Shown here: positions 33,087-39,659 of the stretch, piece after piece
Numbering within the stretch: the stretch's first letter is position 1
Layout: every line of letters starts with the position of its first letter
Source of the DNA: Phytoactinopolyspora alkaliphila
Lineage (GTDB): Bacteria; Actinomycetota; Actinomycetes; Jiangellales; Jiangellaceae
Assembly (NCBI RefSeq): GCF_010550695.1
Contig: NZ_JAAGOB010000013.1
Coordinates: 1 to 64,000, forward strand
Direction of reading: 5' to 3'
DNA length: 64,000 nt
The notes under the pieces: model-generated
Told to the model about the DNA's origin: nothing
Databases searched by the model: none
What the model saw: only the letters and a program-made list of their open reading frames with translations
Program-made: the position numbers and the translations under genes

Positions 33087-34067
33087 CTAGTGTCCGGCGG
33101 AAGCCTGGCCGGCGGTCGACGCGGTTCCCGTCGCCGCGGTGCCGGCTGACGGGCTTCCGGCTGGTGCGGTGAGCAATGCCGCACGAGGGCCGGACAAGGC
33201 GGCGTTCATCCGCTCCACCTGCCCGGCCGTGAACATCGCCATGCAGGCGTCGTCGGTGTAGTCCATGAAATTCATGAACATATCGCCGTGCGGACCGTTG
33301 GCGCAGCTGACGGTGGGATAGGTGGGGCGGCCCTGGTTCGGGCCGCCCTGGTTGGGGGTGTCGTCGACGAAATCGCTGCCGTGGCAGCCTTCGCCGTCGT
33401 CGCCCCAGATGTGGCGCAGGTTGAGCCAGTGGCCTACCTCGTGCGTGGTGGTGCGACCGCCGTCGAACGGAGTGATCGCGGTGCCGGTGGTGCCGAAGGC
33501 GGTATGGGTGATCACCACGCCGTCCGTGGTGGGCGGGCCGCTGGGAAACTGCGCGTAGCCCAGCACGCCGCCGGCCAGCTGGCAGACCCAGATGTTCAGG
33601 TAATGCTCGGCCGGCCAGGCGTCGGAGCCGCCGGTGGCTCCCGCCTTGACCGAGTCGTCGGTGCCGAAGGCAGGCACGGACGTAGGTACCCGGATGATGC
33701 CGCTGGTCGGCTCGCCGTCCGGATCCTCCTCCGCCAGGAAGAACTCCACACGCGCGTCGCCGACGAGACCGCGCCACACCTCCGGAATGAGGGCGATGTC
33801 CGGCGTCTCCCCGCGGAAATCCCGGTTCAGCACCTCGATCTGGCCGGCCACCTGCTCGTCGCCGACGTCGTCGGGCGACTCCCGCACCACATGGACGACC
33901 ACGGGGATCCGGGCGACCTCCTGCCGCGCCGCCTCGGGACGCCGGAAGGTGAAGTTCTCCAGCTCGGCGCACCGGCCCGCGTATCCCGGCGCGGAGTCCA
34001 GCAGCCGGCGGTGCACCGGCATGGTCGCGCATCGCTGCGGGGTCGCGACGTAGGGCAGCTCAGTCAC
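33087..34067 (-). CDS. Zinc metalloprotease, pappalysin-like (M43)
   Basis: 326 residues. The zinc site THEVGHWLNLRHIWGDD fits HExxHxxGxxH, and the Met-turn MNFMDYTDDACMAMFT follows 60 residues later, both hallmarks of M43 metzincins. RIPVVVHVVRESPDDVGDEQ, which opens the catalytic domain, is also typical. The annotated start gives no signal peptide (MTELPYVATPQRCATMP), unusual for a family that is mostly secreted; a start further upstream is not available. Substrates unknown. Confidence 0.9.
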   Translation of the reverse strand: MTELPYVATPQRCATMPVHRRLLDSAPGYAGRCAELENFTFRRPEAARQEVARIPVVVHVVRESPDDVGDEQVAGQIEVLNRDFRGETPDIALIPEVWRGLVGDARVEFFLAEEDPDGEPTSGIIRVPTSVPAFGTDDSVKAGATGGSDAWPAEHYLNIWVCQLAGGVLGYAQFPSGPPTTDGVVITHTAFGTTGTAITPFDGGRTTTHEVGHWLNLRHIWGDDGEGCHGSDFVDDTPNQGGPNQGRPTYPTVSCANGPHGDMFMNFMDYTDDACMAMFTAGQVERMNAALSGPRAALLTAPAGSPSAGTAATGTASTAGQASAGH

Positions 34068-35432: not shown

Positions 35433-37268
35433 ATGACGTGGAAACGGCAGAGTCGAATGGGAGCCGTCGCCGTGACGGCGACGGTGCTGGCAGCGGGGCT
35501 TCTCGGGCCCGCGCACGCCGGAGACGCAGACCCGCAGGGGCGCGGTGGGCCGAAGGAGCCACCGAAGACGCCGGTGGCCGTCGGGATTGGCGGCGCCGTC
35601 TCCACGGTGGACGCGGATGCCACCGCCGCGGGCCTGCGGATGTTGCGCCGTGGCGGCACCGCCGTGGACGCCGCGGTCGCCGCCGCGGCCGCGCTGGGCG
35701 TGACCGAGCCGTTCTCAGCCGGCATCGGCGGCGGCGGGTTCTTCGTCTACTACGACGCCGCGTCTGGCACGGTCTCCACGCTCGACGGCCGGGAGACGGC
35801 GCCGGCTACGGCGGGAGCGGATCTCCTGCTCGACCCGGAGGCCGGCGAACCCCTGCCCTTCCAGGAGGCGCGGGTCAGCGGCCTGTCCATCGGCACGCCC
35901 GGCACGCTTCAGACGTGGGACGACGCGCTCGACCGCTGGGGCAGGTTCTCCCTGCGGACCACCCTGCAGCCGGCGATCCGCCTGGCCAGGAGTGGGTTCG
36001 TCGTCGATGAGACCTTCCATTCCCAGGTAGAGGACAATGCGGATATCTTCGCCGACTTCCCGGCATCCGCCGAGCTGTTCCTGCCGGATGGAGCACCGCC
36101 CGAGGTCGGCACAAAGCTGCGTAATCGGGACCTGGCCGACACATACAAGCTGATCGCCAAGCACGGCACCGACGTCTTCTACTCCGGTGAGATCGCGGAG
36201 GAGATCGCCGCGACGGTCCAGGCACCTCCGGTGGCCGACGATGCGGAGCGCGTCGTCCGTTCCGGCGAGCTCAGTGTCGACGACCTTGCCGGCTACCGGG
36301 TGATCGAGCGCGAGCCGACGCTCGTCGAGTACGACGGTCTGGAGGTCTACGGCATGGGCCCGCCGTCGTCGGGCGGATCCACCGTGGGAGAGGCGCTCAA
36401 CATCCTGGAGAACTTCGAGCTCGACTCCGGCGACGAGGCCTCTGCCCTGCACGTGTACCTGGAGGCCAGCGCGCTGGCGTTCGCGGATCGCAACCGTTAC
36501 GTCGGCGACCCCGACGTGATCGACGTGCCACTCGCCGAGCTGCTCTCCCAGGGGTTCGCCGACGAGCGGGCGTGTGAGATCGACCCGGATCAGGCGGCAC
36601 CGAAGCCGGTGGCGCCGGGCAGCCCGGACGGAGACTACGCCCCGTGCGGTGAGTCCGCCGATGCTGCCGGGGCTGTCCCGGGTGGCGGCTCGACCACCCA
36701 TCTGACCACAGCCGACCGGTGGGGCAACGTCGTGTCCTACACGCTGACCATCGAGCAGACCGGCGGCAGCGGGATCACCGTCCCCGGCCGTGGGTTCCTG
36801 CTGAACAACGAGCTGACCGACTTCAACGCCGTGCCCACCCAGGGCGATGCGCCGGATCCGAACCTGCCCGGCCCGGGCAAGCGGCCGCGCTCGTCGATGT
36901 CTCCCACCATCGTGCTCGATGAGGGGGAGCCCTTCCTTGCACTGGGCAGTCCCGGCGGCGCCACCATCATCACCACGGTCCTGCAGACGCTGCTCAACCG
37001 GATCGATCTCGGTATGGATCTTCCGGACGCGGTGGCGGCGCCGCGGCTGTCGCAGCGCAACGGCGCGGTCACCAACGCCGAGCCGGCGGCACTCGGGACG
37101 CCGGTGGCTGCCGAGCTGGAGGAGCTGGGTCACGTGTTCAGCGAGACTGCCGAGATCGGCGCGGTGACCGGCATCGAGTTCCTGCCCCGTGGGCGGATGA
37201 TGGCGGTCGCGGAGCCGGAGCGGCGTGGCGGAGGCAGCGCGGGAGTGCTGGTCCCGGTCAGGCGCTGA
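35433..37268 (+). CDS. ggt: Gamma-glutamyltransferase (secreted)
   Basis: 611 residues. A signal peptide (MTWKRQSRMGAVAVTATVLA to about PAHA) sends it across the membrane. The proenzyme cleaves itself before Thr421 in GGSTTHLTTADRWGNVVSYT, making that Thr the nucleophile; the GIGGGGFFVYYD loop and RPRSSMSPTIVL of the active site are present. Hydrolyses or transfers the gamma-glutamyl group of glutathione. ATG 35433 is supported by GAGGAG 7 bases upstream. The last 11 bases overlap the convergent oxidase-like gene. Confidence 0.94.
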   Translation: MTWKRQSRMGAVAVTATVLAAGLLGPAHAGDADPQGRGGPKEPPKTPVAVGIGGAVSTVDADATAAGLRMLRRGGTAVDAAVAAAAALGVTEPFSAGIGGGGFFVYYDAASGTVSTLDGRETAPATAGADLLLDPEAGEPLPFQEARVSGLSIGTPGTLQTWDDALDRWGRFSLRTTLQPAIRLARSGFVVDETFHSQVEDNADIFADFPASAELFLPDGAPPEVGTKLRNRDLADTYKLIAKHGTDVFYSGEIAEEIAATVQAPPVADDAERVVRSGELSVDDLAGYRVIEREPTLVEYDGLEVYGMGPPSSGGSTVGEALNILENFELDSGDEASALHVYLEASALAFADRNRYVGDPDVIDVPLAELLSQGFADERACEIDPDQAAPKPVAPGSPDGDYAPCGESADAAGAVPGGGSTTHLTTADRWGNVVSYTLTIEQTGGSGITVPGRGFLLNNELTDFNAVPTQGDAPDPNLPGPGKRPRSSMSPTIVLDEGEPFLALGSPGGATIITTVLQTLLNRIDLGMDLPDAVAAPRLSQRNGAVTNAEPAALGTPVAAELEELGHVFSETAEIGAVTGIEFLPRGRMMAVAEPERRGGGSAGVLVPVRR

Positions 37269-38613
37269 CGCGGCAGGAGACGCGGATGGCGACCTGACCC
37301 TTGGGCGGGACCCGGTAGGTGTCCCGCCAGATCTCGGGGTCGGTGTGCCAGGACGCGTCTCCGGCCGGAGCTCCCCGCACCTCCAGCACCTGGAACGGGT
37401 TGCCCAAGAGATGCACCGGCCGCTGCACGTCGTCGTCGTTGATCACGAGCCAGTCCTCGACGGTGCCGAGGCTGTCGCGTGCCCACCTGTCCAGGGTGAC
37501 CTCGCGGCCGTCCGCGAGATATCGGCAACCGGAGCCGTCGTGCCCGTTCTGGTCTCCGGCGACGCGCACGGTGCGTTGCTTGACGACCGGCCCCGTGGGA
37601 ATGGGTAGCGTGTCGACCAGCTGCCTCGGCAGCCGGCTGAAGATGGGGCGCCCGTCGACCACCATCGACGCCAGCTCCGCGGCCGGGACCGCAACGCTGC
37701 GAGCGTCGTGCTGGTAACCCTGCGCAAAGACCCGGTAGGTGCCTGGCTTGGTCGCTCGCACCAGCAGCTCGGCCCGGTTTCCCGGCATGAGCATGACGCC
37801 CTGGACCGGTCGCGCGCGGGTGAACGGGATGCCGTCCTGGCCGATGTGGTGGAGCGTGTGCCCCTCGGCATGCAGCCAGACGCAGCGTTCGGGATGGGCG
37901 TTCAGCACTCGCCAGCGCTGGATCTCGCCGGGCCGGATGTCGATCTCCGGCTGCCGCTGGCCGTTCACCCGGAGAAGCGGGACGGCAGCTCCGTGACGTC
38001 CGGGCCCGTGCCCGTCGATCACCAGCACCCGGTCACGGGCCGCCGCGATGGCAGGCACCCGGTCGATGTCGCCCTCGACGACGACCGGCCCAACGAGGCG
38101 GCCGCACGAGCGGCGGGCACGTTCGCCGAGCGGGTAGTACCAGTGCAGGCCGGACGGCTGGTCGGCTGGGACGTCGTAGTCGTACTGGTGGCTGCTGCCG
38201 GGCGGCACCCGGACGAACACGTTGTCGCTCACGCCGCTGGCCGAGACGTGCGGCCCGGTGACCGGCACGTCGGCGGAATCGGTGCCGTTGTGGATCCGGA
38301 TGGTGATCCGGTCACCCGCTCGTACCCGGAGCAACTCTCCCGGGCCCGCGTGTCCGTATCCTGCCAGGCCAGGCTTCGATGCCGCCGCGACGTCCTCGGG
38401 GGTGACGCGCACCGAGTGGTACAGCTTCCGTTCGTGACTGCGGATCTGCTCCAGATCACGCAACGGCCGGCCCGCGGAAAGCGCCGGATGCGGGCTGCCG
38501 GGCTGCCGCTGTGCCGGGACGGCGGTGTCGTTCCCCATGGTGGGCCGCGCGGCAAGGTCGCCTGGTTCGGCGGGCTGTGGCCTGCGGGTGCCCGGGTAGC
38601 GTGCAACCGTCAT
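37258..38613 (-). CDS. Multicopper oxidase-like protein lacking copper ligands
   Basis: 451 residues with clear cupredoxin-domain similarity to multicopper oxidases, yet the four copper motifs are degraded. The first HxH reads TGPHVSASG (one His, 122); the second, normally HWYHPH, is HWYYPL (157-162); the third, normally HPFHxH, is RPVHLLGNPFQVL (His401); and the protein ends KGQVAIRVSCRVSA before the final HCHxxxH would occur. It cannot form the usual trinuclear centre. The long intact frame with normal codon use argues that the product is still made, perhaps as a binding protein. No signal peptide. ATG 38613 has GGAG upstream; ATG 38658 does not. Confidence 0.8.
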   Translation of the reverse strand: MTVARYPGTRRPQPAEPGDLAARPTMGNDTAVPAQRQPGSPHPALSAGRPLRDLEQIRSHERKLYHSVRVTPEDVAAASKPGLAGYGHAGPGELLRVRAGDRITIRIHNGTDSADVPVTGPHVSASGVSDNVFVRVPPGSSHQYDYDVPADQPSGLHWYYPLGERARRSCGRLVGPVVVEGDIDRVPAIAAARDRVLVIDGHGPGRHGAAVPLLRVNGQRQPEIDIRPGEIQRWRVLNAHPERCVWLHAEGHTLHHIGQDGIPFTRARPVQGVMLMPGNRAELLVRATKPGTYRVFAQGYQHDARSVAVPAAELASMVVDGRPIFSRLPRQLVDTLPIPTGPVVKQRTVRVAGDQNGHDGSGCRYLADGREVTLDRWARDSLGTVEDWLVINDDDVQRPVHLLGNPFQVLEVRGAPAGDASWHTDPEIWRDTYRVPPKGQVAIRVSCRVSA

Positions 38614-38759
38614 CGTGGCGTTCTCCGTCCCGAATGCGTGTAATGTCATGGATGTCATAAAGTCAAGAGCAGAGTCATGTTCTCGGGACGGATCTTGCCA
38701 CAGCTGGGGCGGCAGGTGCGATCAGCCGACCGGATGAACTCGTCTCGGCTGGGCGTCCC

Positions 38760-39659
38760 TCAGCGCGCCGGCCACGGATTGGCCGTGCAGCCCTCCAGCG
38801 ATTTGGTCTGCTGAACCATCACGGGGGCGCGGGCTCCCTCGGCGGGACAGCCCACGTGGCCGTGGCCCAGCGCATGACCGACCTCGTGGTTGATCAGGTA
38901 CTCGCGGTAGCTGAGGAGATCCGCGCCGAAGGTGCGCGATCCCAAGCCCCAGCGCTCGGCGTTGATGACGGCCCGCGTGCCGTTCCAGCACGAGACCCGC
39001 CCACGGGTGAGCAGCGGGTAGCACTGGTCGTCGGTCAGGCCGGCGCTGGACAGGGAGACGCGGAAGTCCACGTCGCCGCGCTCCACTCGCCGGAACCGGA
39101 CGCTGTCGTCATGGCCCCATCCGCGCTCGTCGTTGAGGATGCTGTGCACGTCGTCGGCGAACTCGTCGGCGCTGAACGGAAGGCCGCGCTCCACCTCGAC
39201 CACGTAGCGCCGGACATCGCCAGACCTACCGCGGGGCGGCCGCGCACCGCCAGGCACCGTGCGGTACTTGCCCTCGGCGCTGTCCGGCGGGTCCACGGGG
39301 TACGGCTGGCGGCGGCCGTTGACCACGGGCCCGTAGACCCTGGCCGGAACGGACGGATCGAGCGTCGGCTTGCGCCGGCTGTCCTGGCTGCGGGAGTGGT
39401 CCGGGTCGCGCTGGGCCGGATCGTCCGGGCCGTTCACGTCGGGATGCCCCAACTGCGGCCCGGCCAGAACAGTCCCGCGGCCGTCAGTTGGGCCATCCTG
39501 CTCGCCGGGCACGGCGGCGACGATCGTGGCCGCGCCGGCGCAGAGCAGGATGACCGAGCCCAGCAGGGCTCGCCATGCGCGGGCGGGATGTGCCGGCGGC
39601 CGCGCTGACTCGGTGCGCGTGCGAAGCCGGCGGAAGGCGCGGATGAATGATCTACTCAT
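38760..39659 (-). CDS. DUF3152 protein, membrane-anchored with HExxH motif
   Basis: 299 residues. Basic N-terminus, one membrane helix (ALLGSVILLCAGAATIVAAV), a proline/arginine-rich linker, and the DUF3152 domain found in most actinomycetes: YVVEVERGLPFSADEFADDV, WNGTRAVINAERWGLG and NHEVGHALGHGHVGCP, a metzincin-like zinc site HExxHxxGHxH. It may be a surface protease; no substrate is known to me. Start ATG 39659. Divergent from the flavoprotein gene. Confidence 0.9.
   Translation of the reverse strand: MSRSFIRAFRRLRTRTESARPPAHPARAWRALLGSVILLCAGAATIVAAVPGEQDGPTDGRGTVLAGPQLGHPDVNGPDDPAQRDPDHSRSQDSRRKPTLDPSVPARVYGPVVNGRRQPYPVDPPDSAEGKYRTVPGGARPPRGRSGDVRRYVVEVERGLPFSADEFADDVHSILNDERGWGHDDSVRFRRVERGDVDFRVSLSSAGLTDDQCYPLLTRGRVSCWNGTRAVINAERWGLGSRTFGADLLSYREYLINHEVGHALGHGHVGCPAEGARAPVMVQQTKSLEGCTANPWPAR

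Follow-up and report, generated by a model that had tools for sequence, protein, structure and literature searches.

The stretch of DNA analysed here, hereafter the window (64,000 nucleotides of contig NZ_JAAGOB010000013.1 of Phytoactinopolyspora alkaliphila), holds a real and retained gene for a multicopper oxidase (MCO) homologue that has lost its copper ligands. Proteins of this kind are already known, and copper-free MCO homologues comprise several families; the window protein has what defines them, namely an MCO fold, the absence of most ligands and purifying selection. The setting is new: it is unusual that export was lost and that the protein has eroded by degrees within one genus, and the lineage preserves an instructive series of remnants. 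We consider it reasonably probable that the protein is a lineage-specific pseudoenzyme, cytosolic and copper-free, with a binding or scaffold role centred on its second domain.

Three Pfam models, Cu-oxidase_2, Cu-oxidase_3 and Cu-oxidase, all exceed their cut-offs over three segments of the encoded protein (P0001), identifying it as an MCO homologue, and its best solved relatives by sequence are Thermus laccases. The G+C content by codon position (0.75/0.51/0.85) is as expected for a coding gene. Purine-rich sites also stand ahead of the aligned ATG in the other members of the clade described below, and the short N-terminus therefore looks like the true start. The coordinates are collected in Table 1.

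Table 1. Positions in the window of the gene for the MCO homologue, of its parts and of adjoining elements.
Feature	Position	Strand	Remark
Copper-ligand-less MCO homologue CDS (P0001, 451 aa)	37258..38613, stop included	-	ATG at 38613, stop ending 37258
GGAG, probable ribosome-binding site	38623..38626	-	9 nt before ATG 38613
Domain 1 (residues 46-180)	38074..38478	-	HxH and HPH ligands replaced or deleted
Domain 2 (residues 181-320)	37654..38073	-	Most constrained domain; 0 canonical copper ligands
Residues 221-295 block	37729..37953	-	Invariant at 38/75 sites in clade
Domain 3 (residues 321-451)	37261..37653	-	HPxHxH = RPVHLL; C-terminal HCHxxxH segment absent
His401, sole canonical copper ligand remaining	37411..37413	-	Present in 6/6 clade members
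11-bp tail-to-tail overlap of the P0001 gene and the gamma-glutamyltranspeptidase gene (35457-37268, +)	37258..37268	.	

Among the 22 genomes of the family that were searched, the clade of the window protein is represented in 5/5 genomes of the window's genus (its own included) and in 1/1 of a second genus, that of P. halophila. Besides the window genome and G001, these are P. halotolerans (G002), P. endophytica (G003), P. limicola (G004) and P. halophila (G005). The remaining 16 family genomes gave no clade member: 13 had no MCO match at all, and the other three had nothing beyond distant ones (27-33% identity). Neither the window genome nor G001 gave a second match to PF07731. The nearest relatives outside the clade are all intact: they come from Nocardia uniformis (L025), Longimycelium tulufanense (L027), the genomes G234 and G344, and an alphaproteobacterial MAG (L028). 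Over BLAST alignments, those of L025, L027 and L028 share 35-43% identity with the window protein. In a maximum-likelihood tree of 20 proteins the six copper-free proteins form one clade (100/100) next to the five intact relatives, and all eleven are joined at 100/100. The tree pairs the window protein weakly with that of P. halotolerans (81/75), a fork that may be wrong because the P. halotolerans protein has a C-terminus and the window protein has none. The intact subfamily shares its three domains with the window protein, but differs from it in having 11/11 ligands, a hydrophobic N-terminal signal and an adjacent gene for a secreted partner; its actinobacterial members also carry a large insert in domain 1 that the window protein lacks. 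This comparison shows that the clade descends from a ligated MCO, and that the loss of the trinuclear site, of the signal peptide and of the partner is common to the clade.

Copper ligands were scored at 11 canonical positions in an alignment to 14 MCOs, five close and nine more distant. All five close references keep 11/11 ligands, as do eight of the nine distant ones, the last (G033) keeping 10. The window protein keeps 1/11 and has no axial Met. Its domain 1 HxH positions are P117 and T119, the HPH positions are Y160 and a gap, and the HPxHxH positions are R398, H401 and L403, while nothing is present of the HCHxxxH segment, the protein ending a few residues short of it. We assign these positions to the T1, T2 and T3 sites on what we take to hold for MCOs in general. 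Cupredoxin domains of the MCO superfamily are present, and of the ten His and one Cys that hold the copper of the three sites in the enzyme, H401 alone is left. An initial sequence-only reading of the window had stated that nearly all copper ligands are lost, which the alignment bears out. Its motif readings were right with one exception: the His of 'TGPHVS' does not occupy a ligand position, the aligned residues being the P and T of 'PVTG'.

The ligands kept, out of 11, number one in the window protein, three each in P. halotolerans, P. halophila, G001 and P. limicola, and six in P. endophytica. In all six members neither HxH ligand of domain 1 is present and the second His is missing from both HPH and HCH, and therefore no clade member can build a trinuclear site; the earlier assertion that catalysis by the known MCO mechanism is impossible is supported. 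The C-terminal HCHxxxH segment is missing in four members (window, P. halophila, G001 and P. limicola), and inspection by eye of three frames past the stop, in the window and the three other truncated members, revealed no remnant of it. P. endophytica alone in the clade retains the type-1 set (His, Cys, His and axial Met), in a protein whose domain 1 is deleted. This gene lies at 9818-11014 of L026 (the same gene as in L004 and L040), and its type-1 set in domain 3 is full.

The clade proteins might bind metal, with H401 and new ligands holding a single metal ion and the P. endophytica type-1 set (H, C, H, M) binding one copper. H401 is the only ligand His common to 6/6 members, T2-type His are also retained in the insect protein MCORP and in plant SKU5 (PMC4203857), and the P. 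endophytica gene lies near those for a heavy-metal ATPase and a MerR regulator. We nevertheless regard metal binding as unlikely. The other ligand positions vary by species (the second HPH His position reads gap, G, L, R, Q and R across the six), so that no new metal site is evident and one at the old place is improbable; the window protein lacks the type-1 Cys and His, and MCORP contained little copper (PMC4203857). No new invariant His or Cys has appeared either. The clade-specific invariant residues are four only (I231, L284, R322 and R330), and a new active site made of them was rejected, as no His or Cys is among them. Of the checks proposed by the sequence-only reading, the one for shared substitutions thus fails, the residues at the former ligand positions varying from species to species. 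Nor is there support for conservation of the altered residues (among the ligand His, H401 is the one kept in 6/6) or for selection of metal binding at the old site, the main constraint being on domain 2, where there are no copper ligands.

The gene itself is clearly retained. All six frames are open, with 50-67% identity in domains 2 and 3, and the 11 distinct gap intervals in these domains are every one in frame. Over the same two domains, second-position identity in the 15 clade pairs is 0.74-0.83 vs 0.48-0.61 at third positions, much like the 10 pairs of intact relatives, alphaproteobacterial MAG included (0.70-0.84 and 0.42-0.64, respectively). Codon likelihoods were obtained with a purpose-written codon model and four intact relatives, the MAG being left out. 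They give ω ~0.09 for the clade vs 0.03 for the intact relatives, rough values because dS is saturated. Over domains 2 and 3, neutrality (ω=1) can be rejected for the clade as a whole (2dL 544), the window tip (2dL 40.7) and every other tip (2dL at least 10.6); given the saturation of synonymous sites, these results are tests against neutrality and not exact values. The ω of the clade over domains 2 and 3 exceeds that of the intact relatives (2dL 6.6). It is raised in domain 3 (0.137 vs 0.028, 2dL 15.7) and shows no rise in domain 2 (2dL 0.5), although for some individual tips the test on domain 2 by itself is weak (G001, 2dL 1.7); ω of domain 1 was not used, because branch lengths reached their upper limit. 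Together, these substitution patterns show purifying selection on the clade gene, strongest in domain 2. A young pseudogene is ruled out by the open frames in six genomes, the position-wise identities and the codon likelihoods. The frame of 451 open, coding-like codons described by the sequence-only reading was confirmed, and the dN/dS comparison that it had proposed as a check favours function, neutrality being rejected for the clade and for the window branch. Its idea of a selected non-catalytic role fared unevenly: retention of the gene by selection holds, and metal binding at the variable old site finds no support.

Where the constraint lies can be narrowed further. Residues 221-295 are invariant at 38/75 sites in the clade vs 27/75 in the five intact relatives, and outside this block the counts are 49/331 and 121/331, respectively. 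The alphaproteobacterial MAG was included in the tree, in the ligand table and in the counts for the block, and left out of those for the invariance profile. Fisher tests for the block give P 3.9e-5 vs all other sites and 0.007 vs the edge of domain 2 plus domain 3 (6e-4 and 0.02, respectively, without P. endophytica), values that are descriptive since the block was picked after the profile had been seen. Adjacent to the block, residues 296-310 (37684-37728, reverse strand) are aligned to YDQGHPGG of the intact enzymes; this stretch has zero invariant sites in the copper-free clade and 10/15 in four intact enzymes, and may mark a substrate or partner contact of the intact enzyme.

Slow decay could be another explanation, in which the common ancestor had already lost the function and the frame survives by chance or under weak residual selection. 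The gene evolves fast: between G001 and P. limicola the proteins are 54.5% identical, the lowest of 14, vs 59.5-93.1% for 13 syntenic neighbours. The raised ω of domain 3 and the C-terminal ligand segment missing from 4/6 members point the same way, and so could domain 1, which is absent from P. endophytica, has lost parts in others and shows a different pattern of erosion in each species. However, decay of this sort is hard to reconcile with six open frames at that level of identity and gaps that are all in frame, with the rejection of ω=1 at all six tips (2dL 10.6-40.7 in domains 2 and 3), or with a block at residues 221-295 whose invariance is not below that of the intact enzymes, and we think it quite unlikely.

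AlphaFold2 models were built for 13 sequences, with a mean pLDDT of 72.8 for the window protein and 67.9 for that of P. endophytica, in which the first 59 residues fall under 50. The window model matches the laccase of Thermus thermophilus (2xu9; Z 31.6, 4.0 Å over 377), a copper-containing laccase that ranks among its best matches with a solved structure, in sequence as in fold. It also matches the copper-free SufI (Z 26.9, 4.0 Å over 357), and the P. endophytica model matches the same Thermus laccases over about 320 columns. The predicted fold of the window protein is still MCO-like.

A hydrophobic N-terminal stretch is found in 0/6 clade members vs 5/5 intact relatives, one of which was tested and matches a TAT signal model. 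In the first 70 residues of the window protein the best 15-residue mean hydropathy is 0.04. These N-termini suggest that the clade protein is cytosolic. The intact MCO is followed directly downstream by the gene for a homologous partner protein in 5/5 cases. The two full sequences, of 182 and 197 aa, have a hydrophobic start and gave no Pfam or NCBIfam match; their genes lie at 11215-11808 of L027 and 11533-12081 of L025, and partner genes also stand 3' of the MCO in L049, L050 and L028. Among 393 genomes of the class the partner was found at E 1e-5 solely in G234 and G344, the two holding the intact MCO subfamily, and at E 0.1 the five genomes of the window's genus gave none. P. halophila has a weak partner-like fragment (G005 contig 39; 40% over query residues 124-181, with one stop) whose E of 3.3e-4 falls short of E 1e-5. 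This secreted-looking protein may be a partner or a copper chaperone of the intact enzyme.

SufI (FtsP) of E. coli is a useful comparison: it has the MCO fold without copper and keeps 2/12 canonical residues, and those who studied it detected no copper and preferred to see it as a scaffold (PMC2661564). SufI is Tat-exported to the periplasm (PMC2661564). The window protein has no signal peptide, and it has no C-terminal HCHxxxH segment. The FtsP equivalog model NF008135 scores 31.5 bits on it vs a cut-off of 581, and neither the window protein nor its five clade relatives have a Tat signal peptide, lacking the hydrophobic N-terminal segment. That the clade protein is exported by another route and acts outside the cell, perhaps in the envelope, is highly doubtful, for although SufI, periplasmic as described there (PMC2661564), is among its best fold matches, its N-termini offer no hydrophobic segment. 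Other cases come from eukaryotes. Insect MCORP is MCO-related with many copper ligands missing, showed no detected oxidase activity as a recombinant protein and is essential by the title of the paper (PMC4203857); it keeps two T2-type His, and the window protein one. Plant SKU5 and Bp10, as summarised in the same source (PMC4203857), miss most copper ligands or those of T1 and T3, and have roles or expression in plant growth; unlike the window protein, they are plant proteins related to ascorbate oxidase, and SKU5 is extracellular. Our literature search found no report on a multicopper oxidase in Phytoactinopolyspora, and the literature on SufI, MCORP and SKU5 that it covered gave no report of this copper-free clade.

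The gene neighbourhood says little about function. A run of neighbours is common to G001 and P. limicola alone within the clade, which rules out a conserved operon as a clue. For the genes beside that of the window (gamma-glutamyltranspeptidase, a DUF3152 protein and a flavin disulfide oxidoreductase), no close counterpart stands near the clade gene of the other five members within stretches of 20 kb. The gene for the DUF3152 protein (38763-39605, reverse strand), which by eye has an HExGH-type motif, adjoins that of the MCO homologue, and a Peptidase_M43 family protein is encoded at 33087-34067 (reverse strand). A HAD-type gene (72%) lies near the clade gene in P. halotolerans and P. endophytica. 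The P. endophytica gene is also near one for a redoxin, 55% identical to two redoxins near the Nocardia gene; together with the MerR regulator and the heavy-metal ATPase, these neighbours suggest that the ancestral gene may have stood in a metal or redox island. Elsewhere in the clade the gene has other neighbours.

Since selection preserves part of a protein that has neither copper site nor signal, it has probably taken on another task within the cell. On this reading, an ancestor in the Phytoactinopolyspora lineage possessed an MCO that was exported and complete in its ligands, belonged to a small subfamily and was encoded beside a secreted partner. Partner, signal peptide and trinuclear copper site were then lost and the gene retained, as comparison with the intact relatives shows. 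The protein would most likely stay in the cytosol as a copper-free binding or scaffold protein; its contact surface might be formed by domain 2 together with the portion of domain 3 that packs against it, and domain 1 and the old copper pocket, no longer needed, would erode at rates that differ by species. We infer the cytosolic location, the absence of copper and the binding or scaffold role, the scaffold role by analogy with SufI. Sharing of neighbours limited to G001 and P. limicola, fast evolution and the higher ω over domains 2 and 3 speak against the pseudoenzyme. Tentatively, one could go further and propose that a secreted copper enzyme was internalised and became a cytosolic copper-free protein in one lineage, the retained function being that of the ligand-free middle domain. 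P. endophytica, with a type-1 site and no domain 1, and the window protein, with three domains and no copper site, would be remnants of that route.

For annotation the case calls for caution, given that three Pfam MCO models score above their cut-offs on a protein incapable of the known oxidase mechanism. How an enzyme becomes a copper-free homologue is usually visible as an end state only. Here, six species with different remnants, intact relatives and a lost partner make it possible to study the loss of export, partner and ligands as a process.
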